NCBI GenBank assembly: GCA_903927025.1
Contig: CAIYLG010000037.1
Location: 1 to 64,000 of the forward strand
DNA: 64,000 nucleotides
Direction: 5' to 3'
Source: an uncultured Armatimonadota bacterium
GTDB taxonomy: Bacteria; Armatimonadota; Fimbriimonadia; Fimbriimonadales; Fimbriimonadaceae
A program made the translations under genes and the position numbers. The notes under the pieces are model-generated. The model was not told the origin of the DNA, did not search any database, and saw nothing but the letters and a program-made list of their open reading frames with translations. How positions within the stretch are numbered: position 1 is the first letter of the stretch; each line of letters starts with the position of its first letter. Below, in pieces: positions 29,832-50,394 of the stretch.

Positions 29832-31160
29832 ATGATCGCCAATCGAGCAAAGGAAGTGGAGTTGGGAAGATTCACAGGCAAACGGAGAGCGTTCAGAGAT
29901 ACCTTCGGGGGACAAAATCCCGTGAATGCGTCAGAAGAATCCATCTCGAATTTGCGCCGTTCGTTTTTTCGGATATCGCTGCAAGCTTTGGCTTTAGGGT
30001 CGCTCGCTGTTGCAAGCGGTCAGACCCCAAGTGCGCTCGTCGGTAAAGCCCTCAAAATCAGAGAAGGTGTTCGCTCGGCAAGAGCGTTGCTGGTCTCGGC
30101 TCAGGCCCAAGCATCTGCCCTAGGAGCCTATCCGACAACGAGACTGGAAACAGGATTTGGTTCTCGTTCCGATCTGCAGGGTGGGGAAGATCTTGCGCTC
30201 TTTCAGCCGATCGATCTTTTTGGGAAGTATCGCGCAGGGATGGCAAGTGGGCGTGCCCAGGTGGCTCAAGCCGAAGCCGCTCTAAGACAAGAAGAACTCT
30301 CCGTTCAACAGGAAGTCCTGATGGCATACGCCCAGTGGGCTTCTGCCTATCGAAATCGCAAGAATGCACTAGCCCAACTCGACATCGCGGGGCAGGTTCA
30401 AAAGGCGACTTCGAAGCGAGTGGAGGCGAAAGCGTTGCCTGAGATACAGCTTGAACGCGCGAATCTGGAAGTGGAGAAGTTTAGCCAGGTGGTTGAAGAT
30501 CGATCCGCAGCGCTCGAAACGGCCCTGATCAAACTGACTCAGGTGGTCGGCGGGGAGCTTTCAGGAGGTTCTGCGGCTGAGCCTCAGCCCATCCAGCTGC
30601 CTGAGATGATGGTGGACGCATTTGAGAAGGTTCGGCCAGAGCTTTTAACTTTAGCCAGTCAAACCAAGTCCTCGCTGGCGGATGCAAAGACCGCGCGACT
30701 TAGCAAATTGCCCGATCTGGAATTCCAGGCTCGACGGTCTCCCTGGAATATTGGCAGCGAACAATTTGAAATTCGCCTCCAACTGGTGTTCCCACTTTGG
30801 GATCATGGAGCCGCAAGGCAGCGGGAGATTGCGGCGAAAAACCAGGTGCTTGCCAGCCAGCTTGAATACGAAGATACAAAGAAGCGAGTTATGACCGAGA
30901 TTAAGTCAGCAAAGATTCAGGTGGAAACCTCCGCCCGTTCCGTCACAAGCTACACCAAGCTTGAAAAGGGTGCGGATGATCTTCTCAAGCGCACTCGGCG
31001 CGGGTATGAACTCGGGGCAAATAGCCTCTTGGATGTGTTGGATGCGGAGAAGGCACTTTACGACGTCCGAGATCAGCTCTCGAGCGCTCAACTGGATTCT
31101 GACTCCGCTGTTGCTAGCCTCATGGCAGCCGAAGGTCTGCTGTTGGAGGCAGGTCGATGA
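29832..31160 (+). CDS. TolC/CzcC-type outer-membrane efflux channel
   Basis: A 442-residue outer-membrane factor. A signal-like segment (FFRISLQALALGSLAVASG) lies at about residues 45-65, preceded by an unusually long N-region; GTG at 29922 would shorten it. The ATG at 29832 has GAGGG seven bases upstream. The body is the typical two-fold repeat of long alpha-helices (for example VAQAEAALRQEELSVQQEV and ELGANSLLDVLDAEKALYDV), the hallmark of the OEP/TolC family. It forms the exit duct for the RND pump encoded by the next two genes. Its stop overlaps the adaptor start by 4 bases. Confidence 0.85.
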   Translation: MIANRAKEVELGRFTGKRRAFRDTFGGQNPVNASEESISNLRRSFFRISLQALALGSLAVASGQTPSALVGKALKIREGVRSARALLVSAQAQASALGAYPTTRLETGFGSRSDLQGGEDLALFQPIDLFGKYRAGMASGRAQVAQAEAALRQEELSVQQEVLMAYAQWASAYRNRKNALAQLDIAGQVQKATSKRVEAKALPEIQLERANLEVEKFSQVVEDRSAALETALIKLTQVVGGELSGGSAAEPQPIQLPEMMVDAFEKVRPELLTLASQTKSSLADAKTARLSKLPDLEFQARRSPWNIGSEQFEIRLQLVFPLWDHGAARQREIAAKNQVLASQLEYEDTKKRVMTEIKSAKIQVETSARSVTSYTKLEKGADDLLKRTRRGYELGANSLLDVLDAEKALYDVRDQLSSAQLDSDSAVASLMAAEGLLLEAGR

Positions 31161-32716: not shown

Positions 32717-35700
32717 AGATTTCGGACTGGGCCATTCATCACGTCCGGCCGGTCATTTTTCTCACGGCGCTACTGTCGCTTGCCGGCATCTTCCTCTATC
32801 GAACCTTTCCGGTCTCTATCCTGCCGGATGTAACGTTCCCGCGCGTCGTTGTCGTTGCGGAGGCAGGAAGTCGTCCAACCAAAGTTGTAGAGATCACCAT
32901 GACGCGGCCCCTCGAAGAGGCTCTCGCGACGGTTCCGAACGTTAAACGAATCCGCTCCAAGACAAAACCGGGTTCCACCGAGATTTCTGTCGACTTCCTC
33001 GACGGCACAGACGTAGTTCTTGCCGAGCAGCTAGTCAATGCAAAGGTGAACCAGATTCGCCCTGAACTACCGCCTGAGACACAGACGGAAGTCGAAAGGA
33101 TGAATCCTACGGTATTCCCAGTTCTTGGCCTTACGGTCAATTCAAAATCCCTGACTCAGACGGAACTGTGGAACTTAGCCACATACACGCTTCGCCCTAG
33201 GCTGTCGCGGGTTGAGGGTGTCGCGAGGGTCGTGGTGCAAGGAGGTCGGGCGCCGGAAATTGAAGTTGGAATCAATTCGAATGAGTTAGCCGCGCAAGGG
33301 CTTTCCACGACTGACGTCGTCTCCTCGATTCAGGCAAGTAATTCGGTGCGGTCGGTTGGCAAGATCAACCAGCAGTTCAAGCAATTTCAGGTTGTTCTGA
33401 ACAGCGAAAAACAGTCCATCGAGGGTCTCAAAACGATCGTGGTTGGCCACAAAGGTGGCATTCCGATCAAGTTGACGGACGTCGCAAGAGTGTCGGCATC
33501 GGCCGAGGACAAAACGACGATCGTCAGCGCCAACGGCAAAGAATCGGTTCTGATCAACATCATTCGGCAACCATCCGCAAATTCTGTGGCGATGGTTGAT
33601 GCGATCAACAAAGAGCTCACCGTGTTGAAAGGTGGTCTTCCGAAGGATGTCAAGATCGGACTGTATTACGACCAGTCCGTCTTGATCAAAGAGGCGGTTG
33701 CCAGCGTGAGGGACGCGGTCCTTATTGGTGCGGTTCTTTCCATTGTGGTGCTGCTGGTTTTTCTTCGGAACCTGCGAGCCACGCTTGTTACCGCGTCAAT
33801 CATTCCGATCACGCTGTTTATCACGTTCCTGTTCATGCGTTTGGCTGGACTCACGCTGAACTTGATGACACTTGGTGCGCTTGCGGTTGGCATTGGGCTG
33901 ATCATCGACGACGCTATCGTTGTTGTTGAGGCCGTGTTCCGGTTCATTCGAGCGGACGGTACGGTTGGAGATGCTGTCAAGGAAGCTGCATCCCATATTG
34001 CGGTTCCGATGATTTCTTCGACGGTAACTACCGTGGTCGTCTTCCTTCCGCTAGCCTTTCTTCAAGGGGTTGCGGGAGCATTCTTCCTAGCACTGGCGCT
34101 CACGTTGACCTTGGCGCTCATGATCTCGCTGGTTTTGGCCCTCTGCGTCAGCCCAAGCCTGTGCTCTTCCTTCTTGCGATACCGCGAAGGAATTCATGAT
34201 GAGGGGAAATTCTTCGGCGGTGTCTCGCGTGCTTACGAGGCGATTCTAAAGGGCCTTTTGCGACACACCTGGGTGTCGATTCCGATCATTCTCGCGATTG
34301 TTGCAGGAACAGTCGCACTCGGTACCCATCTGAAGTCTGGATTCATGCCCGCGCTTGACGAAGGGGCCTTTGTTCTCGACTATCTGAGCCCTCCTGGGAC
34401 CTCGTTGGCGGAGTCGGACCGACTCTTGAAGAAAGTCGATGACATCCTTCTGAGCACTCCTGAAATCGCTACATTCTCTCGAAGGACCGGTACTGAGCTG
34501 GGTTTTGCCATCACCGAAACGAATCGTGGTGACTACGCCGTGATGCTCAAGCCAAACCGAAAGCGGGGAATCGAAGAGGTCATGGCGGAGGTTCGCGGCA
34601 AGGTTCAAGAAGAGGTGCCCGGTCTTGACGTTGACTTTATCCAGGTACTCCAAGACCTCATTGGGGACCTGGCTGGTAACCCTGATCCGATCGAAGTTAA
34701 GTTTTTTGGTGAAAACAAGGCAGAGACCGAAAAGCTGGCATCCGCCTTTGCCGACAAGATTGGAAAGATCAAGGGCGTTGTTGACGTGAAGTCTGGTGTC
34801 GTCGAATCCGGCCCCCAAGTTGAGTTTCTACCGAATGAAGCAGAAATTGGCAGGAGAGGGCTCACAGACGACCAGGTGTCTGCCCAGATGGAGGCAACGC
34901 TGTATGGAACAGTGGCAACCCAACTTGTATCCGGAGATCGGCAGATCCCGGTGAGGGTCCGGCTGCCAAAGGAGTCCCGAAGCTCTTTGGACGCTATCGA
35001 GCACATGCGGATCACGGCTCCTAATGGAATCGTCCTCCTCAAGGATCTTGGCCAGATTCACCTGATCGCAGGTACGTCTCAGTCGGCACGTCAGGATCAG
35101 AGGCGCCTTGTTGCGGTAACTGCGGGCCTTGAGAACATTGACCTTGGCACGGCGGTTGGAAAGGTCAAGGAAGAGCTTGCGAAATTTCCACTTCCGCCCG
35201 GCGTCACCGTCAATTTGGCGGGCCAATTCCAGAGTCAGCAGGAATCGTTTAGGAACTTGACGCTGGTCCTCGGAGCCTCCGTGCTTCTCGTATTCACCGT
35301 CATGCTGTTTCAATTCGGAAGTTTTGAAGCCCCACTCGTGATACTCTTCCTGATGCCGCTATCGATGTTCGGCGCCACGCTTGGCCTTTGGGTAACAAAC
35401 ACTGCGCTCAATGTGTCGTCATTCATGGGCGTGATCATGCTCGCCGGAATCGTCGTGAAGAACGGCATCCTCCTGCTGGATCAGGCGCAGGTCTCTCTTC
35501 GTTCTGGGCTAAGTCTTGAGGACGCGGTACTTGAGGCGGGCAGGACTCGACTGAGACCCATCCTGATGACCACACTCACCGCCATTCTGGGATTGTTGCC
35601 TCTTGCCATGGGTATTGGTGCGGGCGCTGAAATGCAAAAGCCTCTCGCAGTTTCGGTCGTGGGCGGTTTGCTGGTTTCCACCTTGATAACCCTGCTGTTG

Positions 35701-35760
35701 GGGCCAACGATCTTCGTGGCACTGTTGAAGTTGAAAAGGCCGGGTCGCTCGCAGATATAG
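32713..35760 (+). CDS. RND-family efflux pump inner-membrane subunit (AcrB/MdtB-like)
   Basis: A 1015-residue proton-driven pump with 12 membrane segments in two halves and large periplasmic loops. The proton-relay acids D399-D400 in TM4 (GLIIDDAIVVVE) match drug/lipophile-type (HAE) rather than metal-type RND pumps. The second half has VSSFMGVIMLAGIVVKNGIL and RPILMTTLTAILGLLPLA, both classic. The start is GTG, overlapping the adaptor stop by 4 bases. Substrates are not predictable. A bidirectional terminator lies 17 bases after the stop. No regulator is linked, unless the upstream two-component pair serves this role. Confidence 0.92.
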   Translation: MKISDWAIHHVRPVIFLTALLSLAGIFLYRTFPVSILPDVTFPRVVVVAEAGSRPTKVVEITMTRPLEEALATVPNVKRIRSKTKPGSTEISVDFLDGTDVVLAEQLVNAKVNQIRPELPPETQTEVERMNPTVFPVLGLTVNSKSLTQTELWNLATYTLRPRLSRVEGVARVVVQGGRAPEIEVGINSNELAAQGLSTTDVVSSIQASNSVRSVGKINQQFKQFQVVLNSEKQSIEGLKTIVVGHKGGIPIKLTDVARVSASAEDKTTIVSANGKESVLINIIRQPSANSVAMVDAINKELTVLKGGLPKDVKIGLYYDQSVLIKEAVASVRDAVLIGAVLSIVVLLVFLRNLRATLVTASIIPITLFITFLFMRLAGLTLNLMTLGALAVGIGLIIDDAIVVVEAVFRFIRADGTVGDAVKEAASHIAVPMISSTVTTVVVFLPLAFLQGVAGAFFLALALTLTLALMISLVLALCVSPSLCSSFLRYREGIHDEGKFFGGVSRAYEAILKGLLRHTWVSIPIILAIVAGTVALGTHLKSGFMPALDEGAFVLDYLSPPGTSLAESDRLLKKVDDILLSTPEIATFSRRTGTELGFAITETNRGDYAVMLKPNRKRGIEEVMAEVRGKVQEEVPGLDVDFIQVLQDLIGDLAGNPDPIEVKFFGENKAETEKLASAFADKIGKIKGVVDVKSGVVESGPQVEFLPNEAEIGRRGLTDDQVSAQMEATLYGTVATQLVSGDRQIPVRVRLPKESRSSLDAIEHMRITAPNGIVLLKDLGQIHLIAGTSQSARQDQRRLVAVTAGLENIDLGTAVGKVKEELAKFPLPPGVTVNLAGQFQSQQESFRNLTLVLGASVLLVFTVMLFQFGSFEAPLVILFLMPLSMFGATLGLWVTNTALNVSSFMGVIMLAGIVVKNGILLLDQAQVSLRSGLSLEDAVLEAGRTRLRPILMTTLTAILGLLPLAMGIGAGAEMQKPLAVSVVGGLLVSTLITLLLGPTIFVALLKLKRPGRSQI

Positions 35761-35828: not shown

Positions 35829-37858
<2,030 letters not shown>

Positions 37859-38043
37859 AGGGCTGTAGGTGATCAAGCTGACATGCAATCAATTTGGGAC
37901 TCATCAGCACCCGATTCAGGATTGTCGGACAAACTGAAAGCGTGATGCCTTTGGCGGCTTTCTTGCCTGGCAATACCACGGGTTGAGTGGTCCCCATTCA
38001 CCGAAGGGCTGCCAAACTTGCAGGTCGACCCGTCCTGCCTTCG

Positions 38044-38049
38044 TATAAT
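38044..38049 (+). promoter_or_regulatory. Consensus -10 box TATAAT before the BNR protein gene
   Basis: A perfect TATAAT ends 10 bases before the GTG at 38060. No Shine-Dalgarno fits between, so transcription should begin within a few bases of the start codon. No good -35 is seen. Confidence 0.55.
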
Positions 38050-38059
38050 TCGCATAGAG

Positions 38060-39967
38060 GTGCCGTTGTTGATTTCCCGCTTGCTTGTCATGGTTTCCCT
38101 GAGTTCTTTTGCTCTCGCCGTTCCCGTCTACGCTCAGGTGAAGCGGCAAGACCATGGCACAAAGGGCGTCTGGTACTTCAGCTCAAAGAATGTTGCCGTC
38201 CAGGAAGAGGACGAGGAAGAGACACCTTCGCTTGAGAAGTTCAGCGAACTCATGCCAATGCCAGCCTTGAAGCCGCAAGCCTTTGCGACGCCAGCGTCCG
38301 TCATTCACGGCAATTTCAAGAGCGTTCAGGTCAACGTCAGCGCTACGGGGAAGAACATCCTTGGAGATGCGGCCAACGAGCCTTCCATCGCCATTGATCC
38401 CCTCAATACCAATCGCATCGTTATAGGTTGGAGACAGTTCGACTCGGTCACTTCAAATTTCAGGCAGGCTGGAAATGCCTACTCGTCAGACGGTGGCAAA
38501 ACGTGGCACAACAATACGGTTCTGACGAAAGGGACATTTCGAAGCGACCCCGTCCTTGGCGTGGACGCGAAAGGCAATTTCTATTACAACAGCCTCAAGG
38601 AGACGTTTTATACCGACGTCTTCAAGACTGTCACCGGAACTCCATATACGATAATTGGGCCGGCAATGGGCGGCGACAAGCAGTGGATGGCTGTCGATGC
38701 AACAACCTCCGTGGGTAAAGGCAACCTGTATGAAACATGGAGCACCGCCGGCAATAACTACAGCGGGCGTCAGTTTAGCCGCTCAACCGACGCTGGGAAA
38801 ACCTGGTCTGATCCGATAAACCTGCCTGGCTCTCCCATCTGGGGAACGATGGACATTGACCCCACTGGCAACCTCTATATTGGAGCGCTTGGTGGAGGAG
38901 CCTTTCAGTTCCTCAGATCCTCAAACGCCAAGTACGCCGTGGAGACCCCCACCTTCGACATTAGTTCAAATGTTGATCTTGGAGGCGGAATCGTCTACGG
39001 CTCTTCCATCAACCCGGTTGGCCTCCTTGGACAGACGTGGATCGCCACGGATAAGTCAGCCGGCCCCCACGCCGGCTACATCTACATGCTGTGCTCGGTA
39101 GGAGTGGATAACTTGAACCCCTGCGACGTTAACCTAAGTCGCAGCACAGACGGCGGGCGCACCTGGAGCAAGTTTGTTCGAGTTAACGATGACCCTAAGG
39201 GACGCGGTGCCAGCCACTGGTTTGGCACACTCGCCGTTGCCCCCAACGGTCGGCTTGATGTCGTATGGAATGACAATCGGTCAAACCCCTCTGCATCGAC
39301 GTCTGCGATGTTTGTCTCCTCGTCGTACGACGGCGGCGCAACCTGGACGACCAGCCAGCAGGTAACGCCAACCTTCAATCCGAACATTGGCTACCCACAG
39401 CAAAGCAAGATGGGTGACTACCTTGGCCTCATCTCAGACAAGACTGGGGCGAATGCGGTGTTTTCTGCCACGTTCAACGGTGAAGAGGACATCTGGTTCC
39501 TTCGTTATCCTGTTTCGGCGAATTTGCCAATCCCTGCAGCTGCAGCTGTCCCCCTGGTTGGAACGCTTGCCGGAGGCACGGTGCAGTCGATCCATGTTGC
39601 AGACGGATCCACATTCGACGTTCTGTCCGCTAAGTCGACCGGAGTCGGTCAAGCCGCGGCACTTCAAGCTGACTACGTTTTGCCGATGACCGATATCGTC
39701 GCGATGAGTGCCAACGTCACGGCAAAATCAGCGGTAAACGCAACGGGGACCGTGCAGATTTACAACTGGAAGACAAAGGCGTACATCACCCTGCAAACTT
39801 TCTCGTTTGGAAAAACAGGATCAGTGATTCTGAGTGTCAGCCTCAAGTCGATCAGCTCCTCTTACTTTGACAGTACGGGCAAAGTTCGCCTCCAGCTCAA
39901 GTCAACTCTTGCCGGCACGAAGGCGTTTAAGCTGCAGACCGATCTTTTCCAGCTCCAAATCGGCTAG
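38060..39967 (+). CDS. Secreted BNR/sialidase-fold repeat protein
   Basis: About 635 residues from the GTG at 38060. This start is chosen because TATAAT lies 10 bases upstream and it gives a good signal peptide (LLVMVSLSSFALAVPVYA). A TTG at 38018 would lie upstream of that promoter. Four Asp-box loops (S-x-D-x-G-x-T-W) are visible: SSDGGKTWH, STDAGKTWS, STDGGRTWS and SYDGGATWT, the mark of six-bladed sialidase-type propellers. No clear sialidase catalytic set is recognised, so enzymatic activity is unproven. The last ~120 residues form a beta-rich domain also found at the end of the protein at 48391-50394. It converges with the HAD gene, overlapping it by 4 bases. Confidence 0.75.
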   Translation: MPLLISRLLVMVSLSSFALAVPVYAQVKRQDHGTKGVWYFSSKNVAVQEEDEEETPSLEKFSELMPMPALKPQAFATPASVIHGNFKSVQVNVSATGKNILGDAANEPSIAIDPLNTNRIVIGWRQFDSVTSNFRQAGNAYSSDGGKTWHNNTVLTKGTFRSDPVLGVDAKGNFYYNSLKETFYTDVFKTVTGTPYTIIGPAMGGDKQWMAVDATTSVGKGNLYETWSTAGNNYSGRQFSRSTDAGKTWSDPINLPGSPIWGTMDIDPTGNLYIGALGGGAFQFLRSSNAKYAVETPTFDISSNVDLGGGIVYGSSINPVGLLGQTWIATDKSAGPHAGYIYMLCSVGVDNLNPCDVNLSRSTDGGRTWSKFVRVNDDPKGRGASHWFGTLAVAPNGRLDVVWNDNRSNPSASTSAMFVSSSYDGGATWTTSQQVTPTFNPNIGYPQQSKMGDYLGLISDKTGANAVFSATFNGEEDIWFLRYPVSANLPIPAAAAVPLVGTLAGGTVQSIHVADGSTFDVLSAKSTGVGQAAALQADYVLPMTDIVAMSANVTAKSAVNATGTVQIYNWKTKAYITLQTFSFGKTGSVILSVSLKSISSSYFDSTGKVRLQLKSTLAGTKAFKLQTDLFQLQIG

Positions 39968-40530
39968 AAGACGACCTGAATTACCTGGGCACCTGCCTGA
40001 GATGCGCTGATCATTCCGACTTCGGAATCCTCGTAGACCAGGCAGGACCCGATAGGCACCTCAAGGTCTTCTGCCGCTCGAACATAAGGTTCTGGGTGTG
40101 GTTTGTGATTGCGCACGTCGTCACCTGTGACGATCGTTTGAAAGATGTCCCGCAGATCATGCGCTTCGAGAATTCGGTGCACGCTTGCGGATGACGCTGA
40201 AGTGACCAGGCCAACCTTCAACCCATGCTTGCGCGCCAGCCTTAGTGCGCTGACGAGTGCCGTGTTGATCTCGATGGTAAGAAGAGACGTCCGGTAGATT
40301 TCAGTTTTGCGCAGGGCAATCCTTTCAGCATCCGCATCGATGCCAGCCTCCGCGAGAATCTCAGGAAGGAATTCCCGCCAGTTGCGACCCTGCATTTTCG
40401 CGTCAAATGCACGGCGCGTGATTTCAACCCCGACTTCCTTGAGGGCCTGGTTGTATGCGTGCCAATTGGCGTTCACCGTTCGGGCAAGTGTCCCATCGAG
40501 ATCAACCAAGATTGCCTGGATATCATTCAT
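39964..40530 (-). CDS. HAD-superfamily hydrolase (beta-phosphoglucomutase-like)
   Basis: A 188-residue cytoplasmic phosphatase. Motif I is VDLDGTL with D10 (nucleophile) and D12, motif II is VTSASS, motif III lies in VRNHKPHPEPYV (lysine) and motif IV is YEDSEVG. The helical cap is of the small alpha type inserted after motif I. The family removes phosphate from sugar phosphates and related small molecules. It is the last gene of the five-gene glycan operon; its start overlaps the end of the flippase-kinase gene by 4 bases, so it probably trims a phosphorylated precursor of the same pathway. Confidence 0.85.
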   Translation of the reverse strand: MNDIQAILVDLDGTLARTVNANWHAYNQALKEVGVEITRRAFDAKMQGRNWREFLPEILAEAGIDADAERIALRKTEIYRTSLLTIEINTALVSALRLARKHGLKVGLVTSASSASVHRILEAHDLRDIFQTIVTGDDVRNHKPHPEPYVRAAEDLEVPIGSCLVYEDSEVGMISASQAGAQVIQVVF

Positions 40531-42455
40531 CGGCAGACCTCCATGTACTCTCCGATGAGGATGGTGGTGCAGGCAAAGAAGGCTAGCCCTTTCTCAGGTG
40601 ACTGACGAATCTTGTAAGGCGTTAGGCGCAGATAGTTCACTAGCTCATGGAACTGAATCTCTCGGCAAATGTCTGCACCCAGAGTTTTCTGAAGGATCTG
40701 CTCGACTTCTTCATGGAGCAGATCGTAAGCATGTGATCGGGTCAGGGCAATCGTCAGCTCAGAGCCTTTCCATGCGCATGAAGCGGAACGATTAAGTCCT
40801 TCGTAGCCAAGGTGAAGCGACTGACGAAGCTTTGCCCAGTCGATCAGGGGTGAGTCAAAAAGGTTGCCCGGGTTAGGGTCGATGAGGAACCAGCCTTGCG
40901 AACGAGAGGGATCGACGATGATGTTCTCAATCGTCAAGTCACCGTGTATCTGGCAAGTCCGCCGACACTGCAGCTGTCTTCGAATCCACATGGGATCTTG
41001 GAGCTTCTCCCAATCCCGAAGGTCGTAATCCTTGCCGTTGATTCTGCAGGTGCTTCCAGAAAGAAAGTCTCCAATGAATTTCAGCACAAGCCCTGCGTTT
41101 TTGGAGACCTTATCGGCGCCGTATCGATCGATCTCCTCTTGAGATGCAGGTGATCCTTCCGTCGTCGCATGATACGCGGTCAGCGTATCAATCACGCTGC
41201 CCAGCAATGCTTGGCTCTGCTCGATCGGGGCTGTGTGGATCACATCGTAAAAGTCACTGGCCGTTGGTGAGTACGGCATGTCATAGCGATAGAATGAGGC
41301 ATCTCGGCGCTCGGCTGCTATCTCAACAAGGGGCAGTCTGGCTCCGTTGGCACGTAGCCAATCCACCTGATCTGATAACTTATCTTTGAGGTCCCCAATC
41401 GCAAATTTGCGAATGATTAGCGCGTCGTTGGCTTCTACCAGAGCAGTAATGGCTCCCGATCCACCATTGAAAAGGCGATGGACGACTCCATCCTCAATTG
41501 CGTTGAGACCAAATCCACTTAGGAGTTGGTCGTCTTCTCCGAACATTGAGGCAAGGAAGATGTCGTACTGTGAATGCTCGCGAAAGTGCTCGCTGACCGG
41601 AGATGTTCCAGCATCCCAAGTATTGAAGTGTCCCCGAAACAGGGAGCTACAGACTCGAACGAGATTATTCTTATCTCGAAATAGTCCAACGATCAGGATC
41701 GCGAACACTGGCAGAACGCCAAATGCAAGGAATAAAAGCTCGGAGCCTGCCAATTTGCCCTGCACTGCTCGATCCAGCATCGAATGAAGCGGGCTCCCCA
41801 GCATGTCGTACATCACTTCGGGGAGGCTCACCTTTGCCGCTAGTCCAAACGTGAGATATGACAGGGAATAGAAAGCCCACATAAGGGCGGTGAAGCCCAG
41901 ATACTTTGGCCTGATGAGCTGACGGCTGCTGATGATTTCGGACGTACTCCAAGCAAAATCCAAAACGCCGAAGCTGAGCTTGTGGTTGAAGACGGAAGAG
42001 GTTCTGTAGATCAACCTACGGAAAAACCGAGATTTTTGAACAGCTAGCGTGAGTGCCACGCCAACACTGACGAGAAGGACCGCGATGAGCCCAGTCTTCA
42101 TCATGAAAGAGGGGAGCAGAGAGGCGGCGATCATCCCGAGGCAAGCCAGGCCCAGAACAGCCGCGTCGGACAGCCTTTCGCAGACCACCGTCGCCGCAAC
42201 GTAGGCATATCGAATGTGGCAGCGCTTGCCAAGAAACATCACTCGCACAAGCTCTCCGAGACGTGCTGGCACAAATGTGTTGACGCAGTAACCAAGCGCA
42301 AGACTGAGCAACAGGTCAAAGCGGCCAACTGTTGAACCAGCCGGATAAAACGTCGTCATCCTGAGAGCTCGAACAAAGTGCCCAAGAAGGAGGAGGCCCA
42401 CGGAGGCACTAAACAGGCCAATGACGTGGAAACTAAGGAGGCTCAAGCCTTCCAC
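40527..42455 (-). CDS. Fusion of an LPG-synthase/AglD-type membrane domain with an APH-like kinase domain
   Basis: A 642-residue two-part protein starting at GTG 42455, 13 bases inside the end of the nucleotidyltransferase gene. Residues 1-~275 hold about eight membrane segments and the conserved VPARLGELVRV stretch of the lysylphosphatidylglycerol synthase transmembrane/UPF0104 family, often linked to lipid or glycolipid translocation. Residues ~300-642 are a phosphotransferase of the aminoglycoside/choline-kinase fold: nucleotide loop FNGGSGA, lysine in ALIIRKF, catalytic HGD at 504-506 (QIHGDLTIENI), and a metal-binding IDPN segment. One chain thus carries a putative flippase and a cytoplasmic kinase. 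The fusion is unusual; the substrate is unknown, but neighbours suggest a sugar or small alcohol activated next by the nucleotidyltransferase. Confidence 0.75.
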   Translation of the reverse strand: MEGLSLLSFHVIGLFSASVGLLLLGHFVRALRMTTFYPAGSTVGRFDLLLSLALGYCVNTFVPARLGELVRVMFLGKRCHIRYAYVAATVVCERLSDAAVLGLACLGMIAASLLPSFMMKTGLIAVLLVSVGVALTLAVQKSRFFRRLIYRTSSVFNHKLSFGVLDFAWSTSEIISSRQLIRPKYLGFTALMWAFYSLSYLTFGLAAKVSLPEVMYDMLGSPLHSMLDRAVQGKLAGSELLFLAFGVLPVFAILIVGLFRDKNNLVRVCSSLFRGHFNTWDAGTSPVSEHFREHSQYDIFLASMFGEDDQLLSGFGLNAIEDGVVHRLFNGGSGAITALVEANDALIIRKFAIGDLKDKLSDQVDWLRANGARLPLVEIAAERRDASFYRYDMPYSPTASDFYDVIHTAPIEQSQALLGSVIDTLTAYHATTEGSPASQEEIDRYGADKVSKNAGLVLKFIGDFLSGSTCRINGKDYDLRDWEKLQDPMWIRRQLQCRRTCQIHGDLTIENIIVDPSRSQGWFLIDPNPGNLFDSPLIDWAKLRQSLHLGYEGLNRSASCAWKGSELTIALTRSHAYDLLHEEVEQILQKTLGADICREIQFHELVNYLRLTPYKIRQSPEKGLAFFACTTILIGEYMEVCR

Positions 42456-43183
42456 CCGCTCAGTTTGCTGATCACCGAATCTCTGATGAACTCTAATTCA
42501 CCTGGCGTACCAAACGGAAAGTGCTCTTCCAGCACGTGGAGACCCACTTTGCCACCTTGCTCAAGTATCAGGTTGTACATTCCGCTGATAAACAGCTCGC
42601 TGTATGGGCAGTCTCGCTTGTAGGCTTCATAGACCTCGGCGAATAGGCTTGTAGAAGCAAACAGGTAGCACCCGGCAATGGCGAAGTTGCTGGCGACTTC
42701 CTTTTCCACTGTTCCGATCACTTGTCCAGCGGGATCCAGCTTTGCGAAGGAGTAGGAGGGGCGGTCAGATCGAAATGTAAGAAGCGCCGCGCTCTCGTGA
42801 GCCAAATTGGCAACGCAGGTGTCCAGGTCGCCGGCAATGAATGCATGGTCGCAGTCATTGACTGCAATCGGATGGTTTGGCCGTGTCCATTCCGCTCCTA
42901 AAAGAGCTGTTTCTGCGGAGCCTGATGTGACATCCGAAATGGCCCGAATCTTCGCTTGAGGATAAAAGCTGCGAATGATGTCGCCGAGTTGATGTTGAAT
43001 CTGGTGCTCCTCCAGAATCACGAAGATGATTTCGTCAACTAGTGTGGCCCGCTGAACACTCTCTACCGCCCACCAGAAGAAGGGACGCCCAGCCAAATCG
43101 ACAAGGGGCTTGGGAACCGAAACTCCAGCCGCAGAAAACCGGGAGCCACGTCCCGCCATGGGCATGATTAGGCTGACGCTCAT
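42443..43183 (-). CDS. Sugar- or alcohol-phosphate nucleotidyltransferase
   Basis: A 246-residue cytoplasmic enzyme with the GT-A-like NTP-transferase fold. The signature MAGRGSRF (9-16) and KPLVDLAGRP (25-34) bind the nucleotide; the NDCDHAF segment carries the metal-binding aspartate. It transfers NMP to a phosphorylated sugar or polyol to make an activated donor. It resembles LicC/RfbA-type enzymes; base and substrate cannot be fixed. The start overlaps the GT2 stop by 4 bases and the stop overlaps the flippase-kinase start, so it is co-translated with both. Confidence 0.82.
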   Translation of the reverse strand: MSVSLIMPMAGRGSRFSAAGVSVPKPLVDLAGRPFFWWAVESVQRATLVDEIIFVILEEHQIQHQLGDIIRSFYPQAKIRAISDVTSGSAETALLGAEWTRPNHPIAVNDCDHAFIAGDLDTCVANLAHESAALLTFRSDRPSYSFAKLDPAGQVIGTVEKEVASNFAIAGCYLFASTSLFAEVYEAYKRDCPYSELFISGMYNLILEQGGKVGLHVLEEHFPFGTPGELEFIRDSVISKLSGWKA

Positions 43184-43995
43184 AGTCCTTGGTTGACTCT
43201 CCCGTTTGTTCCCACGACTTCAAACGCGTACGATTCATGCACTCGGGCTCGGTGGTCTATGGTTCGAAACTTGCTCCTCGTGAAGAGGAATTCTCGAACG
43301 ATTGCCAGTGTCTTCATCGTTTGCGAGAACATCCTGACATTCGAGATTTGATCTTCCTCCCTCCAGGTGATCGGGAAGAATTCGAACGTGCGCTTTTTAT
43401 CGGCCAGTCCGAGCAACAGGTAGCAGTTGAACCGTAAGTCATCGCTATAAAGCGTCACATCCAAATCCTTAATCACCGCGGTGCCAAAGATGTTGAGGCC
43501 CGAACCAAGGTCGTGAACTTTGCTTCCAGCACAAATTGAAAACAGCAGATTGAACACGTGGTTTCCCGCGGTTCGAAACAGCGAGTATCCCGGAGTGTTG
43601 GACGCCTTCATAAATCGAGATCCTAGGCAGGCATCCAACCGCCGATGATCCCCCGCATTGAGGACAGGGATAAGTTCTCGTATGTCACCCTGATCGTCTC
43701 CGTGCAGTACGGCAACGTGGGAGTATCCCTTTTCTGCCGCATATCGAAATGCGACCTTGTGTGAGCCACCAAGCCCGTAGTTGTTGAGGTTTCTGCCAAC
43801 GGTTGCCAAGTGGGTTGTCACCTCGGAAAGGACGTTTACCGCCGCACTTTGGGTGTCATCGGTGCTTTGGTTGTTAAGAACCAGCACTTCTGCGAATGTA
43901 TCTGCTTCGATTTCATTCAGGCTCCGGAGCACCCGCACTATCTGTGGGGCGCAGTTGTACGCAGGGATGAATAGCAGAATCCTTTCTTGAGCCAT
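43180..43995 (-). CDS. Family 2 glycosyltransferase (polyprenyl-phosphate sugar transferase-like)
   Basis: A 271-residue cytoplasmic or membrane-associated GT-A enzyme. Key segments are IPAYNCAPQI near the start, LNNQSTDDT, and HGDDQGDI with the metal-binding acids, followed by CLGSRFM. The layout resembles dolichol/polyprenyl-phosphate hexose synthases. No membrane tail is present. It follows the GT-C gene by 3 bases and overlaps the nucleotidyltransferase by 4. It may make the lipid-linked sugar donor used by the large membrane glycosyltransferase upstream, an inference from context. Confidence 0.82.
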   Translation of the reverse strand: MAQERILLFIPAYNCAPQIVRVLRSLNEIEADTFAEVLVLNNQSTDDTQSAAVNVLSEVTTHLATVGRNLNNYGLGGSHKVAFRYAAEKGYSHVAVLHGDDQGDIRELIPVLNAGDHRRLDACLGSRFMKASNTPGYSLFRTAGNHVFNLLFSICAGSKVHDLGSGLNIFGTAVIKDLDVTLYSDDLRFNCYLLLGLADKKRTFEFFPITWREEDQISNVRMFSQTMKTLAIVREFLFTRSKFRTIDHRARVHESYAFEVVGTNGRVNQGL

Positions 43996-43998
43996 TAA

Positions 43999-45837
43999 CT
44001 AAGGAGACGGACCAAACCGCCAATCGAACTTCTGATGAAACTCACTTTCTGTTCGAATGGGCACCCAGGTCTTGGCATGCTTCTGGGCTGCAGCCGCCTC
44101 ATGCTGTGCGCTGGCCAAGAGTGTGCTCACTTTCTCGGAGGTCAGCCGTTGAACGTTTATAGAGCCCTCAGGAACTTGCGCCCTCTTCGGGATGAATGGT
44201 GTCGCCGGAAGCTGAACGTGCCATTGCTTATCCGATGTTGCCGGCAACTCCGTGATGGGGCCGAAGAATCCGGGCACAAACTGCCAATTCAGTGAATAGA
44301 TCGTTTTAAAGTTTTCAGGCTTCAGCGCGGAGAGCCCCCAGATGATCTGAAGTGCCTCGCTGTAAAAGTAGGGCTGCTTGTACCATTGGCCCAGGAGGAG
44401 ATAGGGATCGGGGCATCGAAGGTGTGCAATGGTTTGATCGGCCATTTGAAAGACTTCACTTGCCCCTGCGTACTGAACCTTGGCTCGGTCCGGCTCCATC
44501 ATGTCGAAGCCAGCCTGCAAAACGCGGAGTCTGAAATCATCGTCCGCATTGTAGTGACTGCTGATCGCGAGAAGCGGATTTCCTGGCGTGGCCTGCCGAA
44601 CCACGGAGTCCAGTTGAGCCATCCCGTTGTCCACGTTTTGCTGCCATTCGTGCCAAAGAATGGGCGTCCAGAGGCGACCGATCGCCGTTCGCGGGCCATC
44701 CCGGATAACGATGTCCACAGGACCCAGCATTGTAAAGATGAGAATGCTTGCAGATAGGGGCCTCACCACCTTTGGAAGCAAGGAACTGCCCTTATCAAGC
44801 CATTGCCGATGCATCCACCGAATACCAGCCGCACCATGAATAAGGAGCGCAGGTGTTCCCAGCAAGAGAAACATCCTGATCTCGATTGCCTTTGGAAGAA
44901 ACATCGCATAAAAGGCAATCGGCAAACCGACGAGCCAGATAGCTCGCCAAACGTTGTTTCGGCGTATGAAACTGATCGCACCGATCCCTATGAGCCAGGG
45001 AGTGATATATCCAAAGAAGCCTAGACTGACTACTTTAAGCCGAGAATCGGCCTCGAGCCACTCGTGAAGGGTGCTGAACAGCTTTGTGATCTTCAGGGAT
45101 TCAGTCAGTCGGTATGGAGTTGCAAAGTGTGCCAAACCCATGATGAAAATGGTGCCGGCAATCATGAGTCCAGCCCGGAGCGCGCACCGCTTCCAGTGGG
45201 GTTTGCCGATGTAGAGGCAAACGCAAAGCGGCACGCTCATCACGACTGCATCAAAGCGCACGAGCAGGGCAAATGCCATAAGCGCTCCTACTGCAAGCCA
45301 CCTGCTGTCTGACTCCGATTCCTTGGGTACGCCCGCCAGAGCCAACATGGCGAATGCGGCTGAGGGCAGGTTGTCTGAAAAGAAATATCCGATTTCGACC
45401 AGACCAGGAGTCAACAGGAAGACGAGAATAAGCAGCGGAACGGATTCTTCTGACCATCTCCTCGCGACCTGAATAGAAGCCCAACTGAAAGCGCAGAAGC
45501 TGAGTATCATCAGCAGGCGAAAAACCCAGTCGCCGGTGCTGCCCGTCACCCTCATTGCAATTTGAAGCAGATCAACCAACCCACTTCGGCTCATGTAGAG
45601 AAATTCGGTCGTGATTGGATAGGATTGGTCCGCGAGCGAAAGCCCGTGGGGACCGTGCCGATTCATTAGGATGGCAATCGATTGGAGCTGAGCGGAGAAC
45701 GCCTCAAGATGGGCGGAAGTTAAAACGGGCCAAAGCGTCCATAGTCCGAATGCGACTAACGGAACCATCCACTTCAGTTGAAGGGTTTGCGGTCGGACCT
45801 CGAGTTCCTGATCTTGGTCCCGCGGGTCCGTCGACAT
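43999..45837 (-). CDS. Polytopic membrane glycosyltransferase-like protein (GT-C, ArnT/GT39-like)
   Basis: A 612-residue protein with about ten membrane segments starting near LVAFGLWTLWPVLTS, a first extracytoplasmic loop of about 60 residues, and a soluble C-terminal portion (~390-612) containing GSINVQRLTSEKV. The topology fits GT-C enzymes that move sugars from polyprenyl-phosphate carriers on the outer face. The diagnostic acidic pair of the first loop is not clear, so the assignment is by topology and operon context. It is the first gene of the glycan operon; a TAACCT box ends 6 bases before the ATG with no Shine-Dalgarno. It is divergent from the HExxH protein, 72 bases away. Confidence 0.6.
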   Translation of the reverse strand: MSTDPRDQDQELEVRPQTLQLKWMVPLVAFGLWTLWPVLTSAHLEAFSAQLQSIAILMNRHGPHGLSLADQSYPITTEFLYMSRSGLVDLLQIAMRVTGSTGDWVFRLLMILSFCAFSWASIQVARRWSEESVPLLILVFLLTPGLVEIGYFFSDNLPSAAFAMLALAGVPKESESDSRWLAVGALMAFALLVRFDAVVMSVPLCVCLYIGKPHWKRCALRAGLMIAGTIFIMGLAHFATPYRLTESLKITKLFSTLHEWLEADSRLKVVSLGFFGYITPWLIGIGAISFIRRNNVWRAIWLVGLPIAFYAMFLPKAIEIRMFLLLGTPALLIHGAAGIRWMHRQWLDKGSSLLPKVVRPLSASILIFTMLGPVDIVIRDGPRTAIGRLWTPILWHEWQQNVDNGMAQLDSVVRQATPGNPLLAISSHYNADDDFRLRVLQAGFDMMEPDRAKVQYAGASEVFQMADQTIAHLRCPDPYLLLGQWYKQPYFYSEALQIIWGLSALKPENFKTIYSLNWQFVPGFFGPITELPATSDKQWHVQLPATPFIPKRAQVPEGSINVQRLTSEKVSTLLASAQHEAAAAQKHAKTWVPIRTESEFHQKFDWRFGPSP

Positions 45838-46733: not shown

Positions 46734-48326
46734 ATGATGTCATTCGACCCAAGAACTACGAGTCACGAACTTGCCGAGCATCTTGCTCGCCGACAAAAGC
46801 GCCTGCGAGTGGTGAAGACCACAACAACCCCAAGCGGACAGATTATCGACTGGATTCCGATCGAAAGCCAGTCTGCGGCGGGCAGAATAGCCTCTCCACC
46901 CCCGATGAAGATCATGCCGCAGTCGCATGAGTCGCGGCCGATGTCGGCCATCTCATTTGAACTAGAGGATCCATGTGTCGAGCGAGGCCCCGCAGGAACC
47001 GTACCGATCTTTCGGCCAACGGTAACAGCGCTCCGCCGCAGTCTTGAATCGAACCAGCATGCAAAAATGCGCGGAGGCTGCCACGCCAATCGGAAGCGCC
47101 CTAATCGCAAGGCTACCGATCCCGATCCGTTTGGTTATTTCCACTGCATCAACAGCGAAAATGGCACCTTCTACGGGGCCGATGGAATCCTAAGCGTTTG
47201 GGCACCTTTAATTGACCTTCCGTCGGCTCCGGGTGATGATCACTCCATTGTTCAGTTTTGGCTACAGAACTACGCGGGTGGAGTCACGACTTCTATTGAA
47301 GGCGGCTGGACGTTAGACCAAAGTCTCAATGGCGATCTCCAGCCCCATCTTTTCACGTTCTATACAACCAACGGCTACACCTCGGAAGGGGATGGTATTG
47401 GTGGATACAACAATCAGCACAGTGGCTTTGTGCAGTACAGCGGAGTTGTTGCACCGGGTGCCCTGATCAATGGAGCAAGTTCAGTCGGCGGAGAGCAATT
47501 CTTTGTCCGGATGAAGTTTCAGCTTTACGCCGAGCCCATTACGGGCCAACTGAACTGGTGGATCGGTGTCCAAGGCAGCGGCTCGTTCATTTGGGTGGGC
47601 TACTATCCCGCGAGCCTCTTTAGTGGCGGCGTTGGCAACAATGCTTCTTGGGTGGGCAGCGGAGGTGAGGTCTATTCCAGCCTTGCCGACCCATCAACCA
47701 CACAGGATCAAATGGGCAGCGGGTGGCAGGCGGATGCTGGCTGGACAAAGGCGGCCTATTTGAGCAACCTATTGGTGCAGTCCGACCTGAACGGTACGAT
47801 GGCTGACAGCAATGGAACAGGAACTTCGGATACCGCCACCGGAGCGTCAACGAACCCCTACACCATCCAAACCGACATGAACAGCGGCAGCAGTTGGGGA
47901 AGCTACATATACGTGGGCGGACCCACCTCATCCTCCGCGGCCACAGCCCTGTATGATCAAATCACATTCAATATCACTACGGGCGGAGACGACCTACGTG
48001 GGGACAGCAGCGCGACGGCGACGGTGAATCTCTCAGGGGGTCCTCAGGGCTTCACATTGAAGAACCAGGGAGATGGGAGCTGGGACAACAACTCAAACAA
48101 CGTTCGCAGCTTCCCAATAGGGGGCGGTGCTCAGCCGCTGTCAGCGTTCGGACAAGTCAGCATCACCCTGACGTCCCACAATGGTTTCTTTGAGACCGAT
48201 GACAATTGGAACATCCAAAGCGTCGTCGTTACCCTCAGTGGACCCAGCGGGTCAGTGCAGCTGAAAAGCGAAACTGGCAACCCCTTCGCCAGGCTGACCG
48301 GCAGTGCTCCGACAGTCACGTTCTAG
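46734..48326 (+). CDS. Neprosin-like (DUF239) glutamic peptidase family protein
   Basis: A 530-residue protein. Residues ~130-360 match the neprosin/DUF239 fold, known from plant prolyl endopeptidases and scattered in bacteria: SIEGGWTLDQSLNGDLQP, PHLFTFYTTNGYTSEG, SGFVQYS, GQLNWWIGVQGSG, VGYYPASLF, SGGEVYSS and QMGSGWQAD. The two catalytic glutamates of the family correspond to E189 (IEGGW) and E312 (GGEV). A 125-residue proline- and arginine-containing N-terminal region may be a propeptide, but no signal peptide is visible, which is odd for a normally secreted enzyme. Residues ~425-530 form a beta-rich extra domain (FGQVSITLTSHNGFFETDDN…). The start has the strong ribosome-binding site AAGGAAAGGAG. 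Confidence 0.8.
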   Translation: MMSFDPRTTSHELAEHLARRQKRLRVVKTTTTPSGQIIDWIPIESQSAAGRIASPPPMKIMPQSHESRPMSAISFELEDPCVERGPAGTVPIFRPTVTALRRSLESNQHAKMRGGCHANRKRPNRKATDPDPFGYFHCINSENGTFYGADGILSVWAPLIDLPSAPGDDHSIVQFWLQNYAGGVTTSIEGGWTLDQSLNGDLQPHLFTFYTTNGYTSEGDGIGGYNNQHSGFVQYSGVVAPGALINGASSVGGEQFFVRMKFQLYAEPITGQLNWWIGVQGSGSFIWVGYYPASLFSGGVGNNASWVGSGGEVYSSLADPSTTQDQMGSGWQADAGWTKAAYLSNLLVQSDLNGTMADSNGTGTSDTATGASTNPYTIQTDMNSGSSWGSYIYVGGPTSSSAATALYDQITFNITTGGDDLRGDSSATATVNLSGGPQGFTLKNQGDGSWDNNSNNVRSFPIGGGAQPLSAFGQVSITLTSHNGFFETDDNWNIQSVVVTLSGPSGSVQLKSETGNPFARLTGSAPTVTF

Positions 48327-48383: not shown

Positions 48384-48407
48384 GGGCTCGATGAACCGAG
48401 CCCTTTT
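48384..48407 (+). terminator. Terminator-like hairpin with the start codon of the next gene in its loop
   Basis: A 7-bp stem, GGGCTCG (48384-48390) with CGAGCCC (48397-48403), and a 6-base loop ATGAAC that contains the start codon of the 48391 gene, followed by TTTTCTGTTTT. It has the form of an intrinsic terminator for the upstream neprosin-like gene. A second, weaker 8-bp inverted repeat (48335-48342 with 48362-48369) lies just before it. Transcripts starting at the TATAAT box would lack most of the 5' arm and so escape the hairpin. Confidence 0.5.
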
Positions 48408-50394
48408 CTGTTTTGGTCTTGCTTCCATTGCCGTTTCTGGTGCTGTTGCACAGGGGTGGCAATCCTACGGCGGAAACGCTCAGCATTCCGGAGGATTCAC
48501 CGGAGCGAGTCAGAGCGGGAGTCTCATCCAATGGCAGGCGCCTCTCGATGACGGTTCCAGCTACTTTGGTGCGGCAGTGCTTACTCACTATGCGGGCACG
48601 ATGATCACACCTGCAAACACGGTTGTTTACGCCTATCGGTACACGACGACGGTGGCTAACAAGCCGTACAACGACAACTGGGCAGTTATGGCCCGAAATG
48701 GGGCCACTGGCGCGTTGCTATGGCGCTACAACACTGACTTTAACGCCGCCGTACTGGCTCCAGCCGACTGGACATCCGTCTTTCCTGCCACGCTCGTCCC
48801 GAACGGAAATACGCCTGGAGTCGCGATGGGTGGTTTGGCAGGTTCGGTTTGGTACCGAAAAACGGCCGATGTGGCCAACCTTGCTTTGACCCGGCTCGTG
48901 TTCTATACGACGGTTGCGGACTTCAACGCGAACTCAGCCGCCTACGCTCCAATCACCATTGCAACACCGATAACAGCCGATGGTCAAGGGAACCTCTACT
49001 TTGGCTACATCGTCAAGTCGGCGATCCCAACGAAGCTTTCAGCCCTCGGAAATGGTGGTATCGCGAAGATCAACGTGACGACAGGCAAGTCGAGTTTTGT
49101 ATCCGCATCCTCACTAAAGCTAGCCTACGGAATCAGCACACCAGCGATCAACTCTGCGCCAGCCATCACCACCGACGGCAAGTTCCTCTATGAAGCGTTC
49201 AACGGTGCCCACCCTACGATGGTGAAGTTGGCAACGAAGGACCTTACTCTGGCTGCGTCCGCACAAATCTTTGATCCGTCCGTGGCAAACGGAGACGCAT
49301 CGCTTCCGCAGGAGTCATCGGCATCGCCAATGATCGGGCCAGATGGTCATGTGTTTATGGGGGTATTCGGCAACGGCTACCGTGAGAGCCACGGATGGAT
49401 GGCGCAGTTTGATGCCAACCTGAACCCAAATGACAGTAAAGGGAAGCGTTTGCCCTGGGGTGCATTTGGCTGGGATGACACGGCCGTGGTGGTTCCAACA
49501 AAGATCGTGCCTTCCTATTACGGCAAAGCGCCTTATCTCATCCTCACGAAATATAACAACTACAACTTCTCGTGGGATCCGCTGGCCGATGGAAGCAATA
49601 AGGTCGCGGTTTTGGATCCCTCAAGCGACTCGATCACAGTGGATCGGCAGTCGGGCATTCACACCATGAATGAAGTTCTTACGGTTCTGGGCGTCACCAA
49701 GACGAACGACGATACGACCAAGCCGAATGCCGTGAATGAGTGGTGTATCAACTCAGCTGCCGTGGACATTAACCGAAAGAGCGCTATCGTAAACAGCGAA
49801 GATGGACACATGTACCGATGGAGCTTTGTGACAAACACTCTCACCGAAGCACTCGATCTTCAGCCTCCGACGGGTGAGGCTTATACGATGACCTCGATCG
49901 GTCCAGACGGCCAGCTATACGCAATCAACAACACGATTCTGTTCGCTGTTGGCTCAACGAAACCAACTTCGGTTAGCCGCTATGCCGGTTCGGCGATGAA
50001 CGGTGGCATCGTTCAGCTGACTTCGCGAGATCAGAGCTACTGCACGATCACTTCAGCCAAAGTGGGCACCTTGCAGGAAGCCGGTGTCGAAGCTGATTTC
50101 AAGCAGACCGCTAAGAGCCCGACTGAACTCAATGTCGTGGTTGATTGTGGTGGGACAAACGGCGCGGCTGGCAGCGTACTTGCCTACAATTACAAAACGA
50201 AGCATTGGGACTCGCTTGGAACTGCAGATCTCTCAAAGGGATATGTATTTCACGTTAACGTCCCGGCAGGTGCCGCAAACTACGTCGGTCCAACTGGAAT
50301 CACGCGAGTGGTGGCGCTTGCTTCGATTCCAATCAGCGCATCTCCTGCAAAGTTCAGCCTGATGGTTGACCAGATCACCTGCAACGCAAAGTAG
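48391..50394 (+). CDS. Secreted PQQ-like beta-propeller protein
   Basis: A 667-residue protein with a short signal peptide (ALFCFGLASIAVSGAVA, cut before QGWQSYGG). The start WQSYGGNAQHSGG resembles PQQ-type propeller proteins, and blade-like strands such as GQGNLYFGYIV, DGKFLYEAF, PDGHVFMGVF and EDGHMYRWSF recur. No quinone-binding or catalytic set is recognised. The C-terminal ~120 residues are beta-rich and end in VDQITCNAK; the same domain closes the BNR protein at 38060-39967, with a shared VYNxKTK-type strand (LAYNYKTKHWDSL against QIYNWKTKAYITL). This tail may serve secretion or surface attachment. A terminator follows directly. Confidence 0.65.
   Translation: MNRALFCFGLASIAVSGAVAQGWQSYGGNAQHSGGFTGASQSGSLIQWQAPLDDGSSYFGAAVLTHYAGTMITPANTVVYAYRYTTTVANKPYNDNWAVMARNGATGALLWRYNTDFNAAVLAPADWTSVFPATLVPNGNTPGVAMGGLAGSVWYRKTADVANLALTRLVFYTTVADFNANSAAYAPITIATPITADGQGNLYFGYIVKSAIPTKLSALGNGGIAKINVTTGKSSFVSASSLKLAYGISTPAINSAPAITTDGKFLYEAFNGAHPTMVKLATKDLTLAASAQIFDPSVANGDASLPQESSASPMIGPDGHVFMGVFGNGYRESHGWMAQFDANLNPNDSKGKRLPWGAFGWDDTAVVVPTKIVPSYYGKAPYLILTKYNNYNFSWDPLADGSNKVAVLDPSSDSITVDRQSGIHTMNEVLTVLGVTKTNDDTTKPNAVNEWCINSAAVDINRKSAIVNSEDGHMYRWSFVTNTLTEALDLQPPTGEAYTMTSIGPDGQLYAINNTILFAVGSTKPTSVSRYAGSAMNGGIVQLTSRDQSYCTITSAKVGTLQEAGVEADFKQTAKSPTELNVVVDCGGTNGAAGSVLAYNYKTKHWDSLGTADLSKGYVFHVNVPAGAANYVGPTGITRVVALASIPISASPAKFSLMVDQITCNAK

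Follow-up and report, generated by a model that had tools for sequence, protein, structure and literature searches.

In the nucleotide-heptose pathway a kinase, the phosphatase GmhB and a nucleotidyltransferase run via a bisphosphate, and in the Lic system, which carries a choline importer, the pathway has no known step for a HAD phosphatase. At the membrane, proteins of the family PF03706 have been proposed as flippases (PMC5898192), and MprF sets the precedent of a flippase that is joined in one protein with the enzyme producing its cargo (PMC8131360); here and below, each paper is cited for the passages of it that were consulted. We describe a five-gene operon in a stretch of 64,000 nucleotides (nt), referred to as the window, which forms positions 1 to 64,000 of contig CAIYLG010000037.1 from an uncultured Armatimonadota bacterium (Fimbriimonadaceae). 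One of its genes encodes a PF03706 membrane domain and an APH-fold kinase on a single chain (henceforth the fusion). Judging from its sequence, the operon would make a sugar, load it onto a lipid and export the lipid-linked product to the cell surface, a reading to which we give a probability of about 0.57.

The operon runs on the minus strand from 45837 to 39964, and its five open reading frames (ORFs) all overlap or nearly abut (Table 1). A preliminary description of the window had listed these genes, and the ORFs lie where it placed them, with Pfam agreeing on the families that it named. A membrane glycosyltransferase of the GT-C type, the putative final transferase, is followed after a gap of 3 nt by a family 2 glycosyltransferase (GT2), which overlaps by 4 nt the gene of a nucleotidyltransferase-like protein (NT); the NT gene in turn overlaps the fusion by 13 nt, and the fusion overlaps a HAD phosphatase gene by 4 nt. 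The best NCBIfam scores of the GT2 were to polyprenyl-phosphate-sugar enzymes, far under their cut-offs (AglJ, 43.9 bits against 325; PpgS, 32.9 against 370). The NT gave MobA/IspD-like scores, and the solved structures nearest to its profile were 4evw (107 bits) and, second, 6jq8, a protein of the 6-deoxy-D-mannoheptose pathway; the NCBIfam model of heptose-1-phosphate guanosyltransferase reached 13.6 bits in the operon, under its cut-off of 300. The HAD protein was considered as a beta-phosphoglucomutase and rejected, given that the bPGM model scored 94.2 bits (cut-off 189.4) and that His20 and Arg49, which we take to have roles in that enzyme, are lacking, these positions being Asn and Tyr in the aligned HAD profile and N22 and W51 in the window protein. 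No GmhB model was found among the best 25 of 44 NCBIfam families for this HAD. The stop of its gene overlaps by 4 nt (39964-39967) the end of a convergent gene for a BNR-repeat protein (38018-39967).

The fusion is not a gene-calling artefact, because its single open frame is uninterrupted by internal stops and other phyla likewise have frames of about 640 amino acids (aa) that contain both halves. Pfam recognised LPG_synthase_TM (PF03706) in it at 65.1 bits (cut-off 33.4) and APH at 25.1 bits, barely over the cut-off of 23.2, and all 63 fusion members used for modelling matched PF03706 at an E-value (E) of 0.01. From these 63 sequences AlphaFold2 modelled the whole fusion as one confident chain (predicted local distance difference test, pLDDT, 92.0; predicted TM-score, pTM, 0.84), and the membrane half alone reached a pLDDT of 92.3. 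The best second-look fold match of the membrane half was MprF of Rhizobium etli (7f47), covering 251 of 284 residues at a root-mean-square deviation (rmsd) of 4.7 and a Z-score (Z) of 9.4, modest for a helical protein, with the next row at Z 5.7. Because of its family and its MprF-like fold, the membrane half is a candidate flippase. The C-terminal half has the APH fold and is not an aminoacyl-phosphatidylglycerol synthase domain. All 50 fold matches listed for it were APH-fold kinases (Z 19.2 to 16.4; top match 3tdw, Z 19.2, rmsd 3.5 over 273 residues), among them fructosamine-3-kinase, glucosamine kinase, 5-methylthioribose kinase, maltokinase and pneumococcal LicA (Z 17.0), and Foldseek gave N-acetylhexosamine 1-kinase and maltokinase among its matches. 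The 5-methylthioribose kinase, maltokinase and N-acetylhexosamine 1-kinase act on C1 hydroxyls. Aminoglycoside resistance was rejected as a role, the best NCBIfam resistance model, APH(6), scoring 12.4 bits against a cut-off of 325. The need for adenosine triphosphate (ATP) would place the kinase half in the cytosol.

The fusion is rare and patchy. In the phylum of the window the whole protein was found in two of 291 genomes, the window's own included, and another nine matched in part at E 0.001 (11 in all), eight of them with the membrane half and one (G224) with the kinase at 17.9 bits; within the genus, two of 20 genomes carried the fusion. The second genome, G012, has the five genes in an identical order, starting with the GT-C orthologue, and between different flanks. 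In the classes of G300 (labelled Lachnospira) and G292 (labelled Blastochloris), frames of about 640 aa that the kinase model matched over its full length occurred in two of 391 and one of 385 genomes, G300 and G292 included. A scan of genome contigs with four fusions gave 107 relatives, of which 80 were kept; these all spanned both halves (each beginning no later than residue 49 and ending no earlier than residue 619) and were labelled, besides Fimbriimonas, as Bacillota, Pseudomonadota, Gemmatimonadota, Planctomycetota, Acidobacteriota, Bdellovibrionota, Spirochaetota, Mycoplasmatota and Thermodesulfobacteriota. A plasmid of Pseudochrobactrum algeriensis carries the order GtrA-GT2-NT-fusion-HAD, with rhamnose genes a few kb off. 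The tree grouped the window with G012 and an acidobacterium at 100, within a mostly Pseudomonadota set, a placement that suggests lateral transfer without proving it. Searching viral contigs with the window protein found nothing; query A1 found seven contigs, all matching only part of the kinase. The joining of translocation and phosphorylation in one chain had at first been called unusual. It is indeed rare, and in the open-access literature, judged by titles and the beginnings of abstracts, we found no description of the fusion, whether as this domain combination or as a known enzyme of another pathway, but it is a conserved family and not a peculiarity of the source genome.

For gene linkage we compared 83 distinct loci, namely the window, G012, the plasmid, one unverified scaffold labelled as phage and 79 contigs from the genome scan (L018, the same locus as L013, was dropped). 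The set favours fusions, because the search patterns were built from four of them, and its members are related, many being from Gemmiger and others forming close groups (L031/L032; L040/L042/L046/L047). With matches under 60 bits left out (e.g. a 30-bit GT2 in L095), the NT was present in 79 of the 83 loci, no more than 400 nt upstream of the fusion in 70 of them, and the HAD in 78, no more than 400 nt downstream in 73; GT2 was found in 67, and the fusion, NT, HAD and GT2 stood together in 62, so that the genes are kept together across phyla. NT and fusion ORFs overlapped in 52 loci and fusion and HAD ORFs in 55, both counts being inflated because ORF starts were taken farthest upstream. Three of the four loci lacking an NT hold just 0.4 to 1.4 kb of upstream DNA, and among the five lacking the HAD, the contig of L048 ends at the fusion and L069 carries a GmhB-like HAD instead. 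A GalE-like short-chain dehydrogenase/reductase of the module type, with GalE as its nearest solved relative, occurred in 25 loci above a line of 350 bits, and three more scored 226 to 271. A GT-C of three common clusters was present in 32 loci, and neither such a GT-C nor GtrA, which is not in the window operon, in 39. Operon neighbours beyond the module families numbered 139, of which a subset was examined.

The kinase motifs are intact across these loci. In the alignments, from which sequences shorter than 85% of the median length were dropped (n = 83 for the fusion, 76 for NT, 73 for HAD and 63 for GT2), the kinase residues R349, K350, H504, G505, D506, L507, T508, E510, N511, I525 and D526 were identical in every fusion, and P527 and N528 were kept in at least 93%; the APH-kinase signature, an HxD...N loop and a following Asp, is thus present as H504, D506, N511 and D526. 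The NT kept D110, D112, E160 and K161 in 76 of 76 sequences and G11, G13, R15 and P24-K25-P26 in at least 93%, and the HAD kept D10, D12, T14, K75, K143 and D168 in 73 of 73. Distance matrices of the membrane half, kinase half, NT, HAD and GT2 correlated at 0.862 to 0.935 (n 56 to 83; 0 of 999 permutations as high), with r 0.928 between the two halves of the fusion, which speaks for co-inheritance and not for function, because shared organism history contributes and there was no outside control gene. The long-branch locus L069 has its GmhB-like HAD in the position normal for the HAD and another GmhB-like gene at a separate site of the genome; both fall under the GmhB cut-offs. Downstream of the fusion in this gammaproteobacterial metagenome-assembled genome, a transaldolase gene (L069:10593-11309, 313 bits, above the cut-off) shares 4 nt with the GmhB-like gene; being the sole PF00923 match in that genome, it was not used as evidence.

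The kinase also occurs without the membrane half. Among distant relatives, sampled from two classes and from phages, each of the six bacterial kinases had an NT, either fused or next to it: Pfam shows L131 to be an NT-kinase fusion, L135 and L136 are such fusions with weaker scores, L129 is one by reading and has a separate NT alongside, and L130 and L137 are separate kinases adjoining NTs. A HAD was clear in L129 (EcbF-BcbF, 132.5 bits) and L136 (66.5 bits; cut-off 162) and weak, under the cut-offs, in L135 and L137. The glycan cluster of L137 also holds, near the kinase and an NT-HAD-like fusion, a small cytidylyltransferase-like gene (L137:2818-3249; RfaE-II-like, 40.8 bits, under the cut-off). 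In Bacillus phage G (L017:5963-12916, gp313-gp306) the kinase gp311, the HAD gp310 and the RmlA-like NT gp309 (110, 99 and 24 bits against the module profiles) stand between two genes annotated as alpha-glucosyltransferases, a possible phage-encoded route to a nucleoside diphosphate sugar (NDP-sugar) for DNA glycosylation. A BcbF-like HAD-kinase fusion followed by an RfaE-II-like NT was scored in two IMG/VR contigs (L098, 5143-6821; L103, 1094-2679), and this layout was read in six of seven viral contigs (L099 being left out). Phage RB69 holds a kinase (052), an NT-like protein (053), a BcbF-like HAD (051; 49.5 bits, cut-off 162) and an arabinose-5-phosphate isomerase (055), and in a structure search of viral models gp311 came first and RB69 ORF052c fourth, while guanylyltransferase, NTP transferase and nucleotidyl transferase are the names of the proteins at ranks 2, 5 and 7. 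The DNA of RB69 contains arabinose, and the authors reporting on it propose that 052/053 and 055 help to make uridine diphosphate (UDP)-arabinose, a kinase with an esterase being one possibility (PMC6024577). A 2021 paper lists similarity of 052 to RmlA and APH and a phosphatase domain in 051 (PMC8056088), a homologue from phage Thanatos was expressed and in-vitro work did not reveal what it does (PMC12838424), and the passages seen of a further paper hold nothing on the kinase-HAD-NT trio (PMC7824862). Together these relatives suggest that the pairing of an APH-like kinase with an NT and a HAD is a general alternative route to NDP-sugars, in bacteria and in phages that decorate their DNA.

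The recurrence of kinase, NT and HAD with shuffled fusion partners probably reads as a series from sugar-phosphate to 1,n-bisphosphate, 1-phosphate and NDP-sugar. The GmhB-like HAD of L069 and the RfaE-II-like viral NTs point to the same heptose-like bisphosphate route, and the GT2, GtrA and GT-C partners to a polyprenyl-phosphate-sugar, its flipping and a transfer outside. The cytosolic kinase half would phosphorylate the anomeric hydroxyl of a sugar-phosphate, the HAD would strip the distal, original phosphate from the resulting 1,n-bisphosphate, and the NT would convert the sugar-1-phosphate into an NDP-sugar, which the GalE-like enzyme could remodel in the loci that have it. The GT2, from its family, would then move the sugar onto polyprenyl phosphate, and the membrane half, as an MprF-type flippase domain by family and fold, would carry the lipid-linked sugar to the outer leaflet, with GtrA perhaps taking part in some relatives, before the GT-C hands the sugar over to an acceptor at the surface. 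The first view of the locus, as a glycan or glycolipid operon in which the GT2 would make a lipid-linked sugar and the membrane parts would flip and attach it, is supported at the level of families and folds. If so, the module is a patchy, cross-phylum set for glycans, and proteins annotated just as 'lysylphosphatidylglycerol synthase transmembrane domain-containing' gain a testable role.

Given this scheme, the leading candidate for the substrate is a pentose-5-phosphate, because of the arabinose in RB69 DNA and the papers on RB69 052/053/055 and the Thanatos homologue, although we put this identity at somewhat below even odds. More doubtful is the full proposal of a new bacterial lipid-linked pentose route, in which ribose- or arabinose-5-phosphate would be turned into the 1,5-bisphosphate by the kinase part of a polyprenyl-phosphate-pentose flippase and the membrane-less kinase-HAD-NT form would supply the sugar for arabinosylation of phage DNA. 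Were it true, one chain would hold the first and the last-but-one step, and activation could be coupled to export.

Several observations weigh against the lipid-linked sugar scheme. Pfam APH matched just 12 of the 63 fusion members at E 0.01. Aminoglycoside kinases make up the best fold rows of the kinase half, and, with many other APH kinases listed besides them, the fold does not choose a substrate, nor can Z pick one. Foldseek alone gave no match for the membrane half at E 0.001, so that MprF was not recovered. One locus, L064, shows no NT within 8.0 kb on the upstream side or 2.9 kb on the downstream side, and no HAD was found in L071, L030 and L037. On the phage side, RB69 052 is a remote kinase homologue (23 bits), 053 scores 4.7 bits and goes unrecognised by the module NT profile, and the arabinose pathway is its authors' proposal. 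The rpiB gene in front of the operon in four near-identical loci of one clade alone (L040, L042, L046 and L047) was rejected as proof of a pentose and gives weak support; it is probably housekeeping, because it is the only rpi gene in both genomes of this clade that were searched (G299 and G300). To these points come a rival flippase, GtrA, in 20 of the 83 loci, a symporter and the lack of a HAD beside some distant kinases, each of which bears on another explanation.

The GtrA loci, eight of which also hold a GT-C of the three common clusters, would suit a membrane half that is an anchor, keeping sugar activation beside the GT2, while GtrA or another protein does the flipping. This changes one step only and is compatible with the rest of the scheme, but we consider it unlikely: no GtrA clustered in the other 63 loci (some on short contigs), the membrane half matches MprF in fold, and R32, G67 and W193 are identical in 83 of 83 fusions and D97 kept in at least 93%, which exceeds what an anchor should need.

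The preliminary description had the kinase, NT and phosphatase making an activated small alcohol or sugar. An activated compound stands; that the kinase and NT activate choline, ethanolamine or a polyol as a cytidine diphosphate (CDP)-alcohol, as in LicA-LicC, for decoration of a glycan, seems improbable to us. LicA among the kinase fold matches, the MobA/IspD-like scores of the NT and the NT-kinase fusions among distant relatives would all agree with it, but the HAD kept in nearly every locus has no known place in the Lic pathway, and a sugar is the likelier product because of this partner, the GalE-like epimerase in 25 loci, the polyprenyl-phosphate-sugar-like GT2, the GmhB-like HAD of L069 and the arabinose of RB69.

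Comparably improbable is a salvage role, in which the kinase, like the N-acetylhexosamine 1-kinase and maltokinase found by Foldseek, would put a phosphate on C1 of a free sugar and the HAD would serve as a house-cleaning phosphatase. In L040, L042 and L046, where rpiB stands in front, the gene after the HAD encodes a sodium:solute symporter (L040:10640-12214; PF00474, 192.8 bits in L040), which suits free-sugar uptake equally well, but these three loci are near-copies of each other. No HAD was found for two of the six distant kinases (L130 unmatched; L131 with none on its 4.3-kb contig), whereas in the 83 loci the HAD is nearly as constant as the NT, and L069 possesses a HAD too, of a bisphosphatase-like type. 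That the kinase acts on a lipid, either polyprenol or a lipid-linked sugar, and the fused domain flips the product as MprF flips its modified lipid, would agree with the shared plan, in which a cytosolic enzyme comes after a membrane flippase domain (PMC8131360), and with the co-variation of the two halves, but is very improbable, relatives without the membrane domain keeping the NT and often the HAD.

Table 1. Genes, domains and conserved motifs of the operon (positions in the window).
Feature	Position	Strand	Details
GT-C membrane glycosyltransferase (PMT_2)	43999..45837	-	612 aa; Pfam PF13231 31.7 bits, cut-off 26.1
GT2	43180..43995	-	271 aa; Pfam Glycos_transf_2 45.1 bits
Sugar-1-phosphate-nucleotidyltransferase-like protein (NT)	42443..43183	-	246 aa; Pfam NTP_transf_3 36.2 bits
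Fusion, MprF-type membrane domain and APH-fold kinase	40527..42455	-	642 aa, GTG start
Fusion, membrane half, residues 1-284	41604..42455	-	PF03706 (LPG_synthase_TM)
Fusion, kinase half, residues 310-642	40530..41528	-	APH fold
Catalytic-loop motif HGDLTIEN, residues 504-511	40923..40946	-	alignment of 83 fusions
IDPN motif, residues 525-528	40872..40883	-	alignment of 83 fusions
HAD phosphatase, beta-phosphoglucomutase/CbbY group	39964..40530	-	188 aa; Pfam HAD_2 101.7 bits

Elsewhere in the window, a protein of 1736 aa with WD40-type repeats is encoded at 9431-14641, and a resistance-nodulation-division (RND) efflux operon at 29832-35760 comprises an outer-membrane efflux protein (29832-31160), a HlyD-like adaptor (31157-32716) and an AcrB-type pump (32713-35760). 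A uridine-kinase-like P-loop protein (37259-37858; 109.9 bits, equivalog cut-off 220.3) has an ORF start that overlaps that of a divergent O-acetylhomoserine sulfhydrylase ORF, if the first start codon of the latter is used. At 46734-48326 lies a Neprosin-domain protein (132.9 bits), here in a bacterium, from a family better known from plants, and two large ORFs at 48391-50394 (667 aa) and 50436-51995 (519 aa) had no Pfam match at E 0.001.

Set beside the described systems, the fusion shares with MprF an N-terminal PF03706 flippase domain, matched also in fold, and a cytosolic enzyme on the same chain, but this enzyme is an APH-fold kinase and not an aminoacyl-transfer domain, and the membrane part has about 285 residues. 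The label 'AglD-type' given at first is right for the membrane domain only, and haloarchaeal AglD likewise uses a PF03706 domain in glycan assembly; its domain order is reversed, however, and its fused enzyme is a glycosyltransferase where that of the window is a kinase (PMC5898192). Gtr-type systems (GtrA, GT2, GT-C) have in common with the module a GT2 for a lipid-linked sugar, a GT-C transferase and, in some loci, GtrA, to which the fusion module adds its own sugar-activation genes and the flippase-kinase chain. LicA/LicC pair an APH-fold kinase with an NT in the same way, whereas the module has HAD, GT2 and epimerase partners and a PF03706 domain where Lic has its importer. RB69 ORF051-055 likewise combine a distant kinase homologue, an NT-like protein and a HAD with an arabinose-5-phosphate isomerase, but they have no membrane half, serve DNA modification in a pathway that is itself proposed, and use an NT and a HAD of other subfamilies. 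The nucleotide-heptose pathway, finally, likewise has a kinase, a HAD and an NT, with GmhB-like and RfaE-II-like parts in variants of the module and a heptose-pathway protein matching the NT, and differs in that the window kinase is APH-fold and membrane-fused, the HAD is of the beta-phosphoglucomutase/CbbY type and the window proteins fall far under the heptose cut-offs. On our best reading, the scheme would follow the logic of the heptose pathway, carried out by other enzyme families and extended by a flippase that shares its chain with the kinase.

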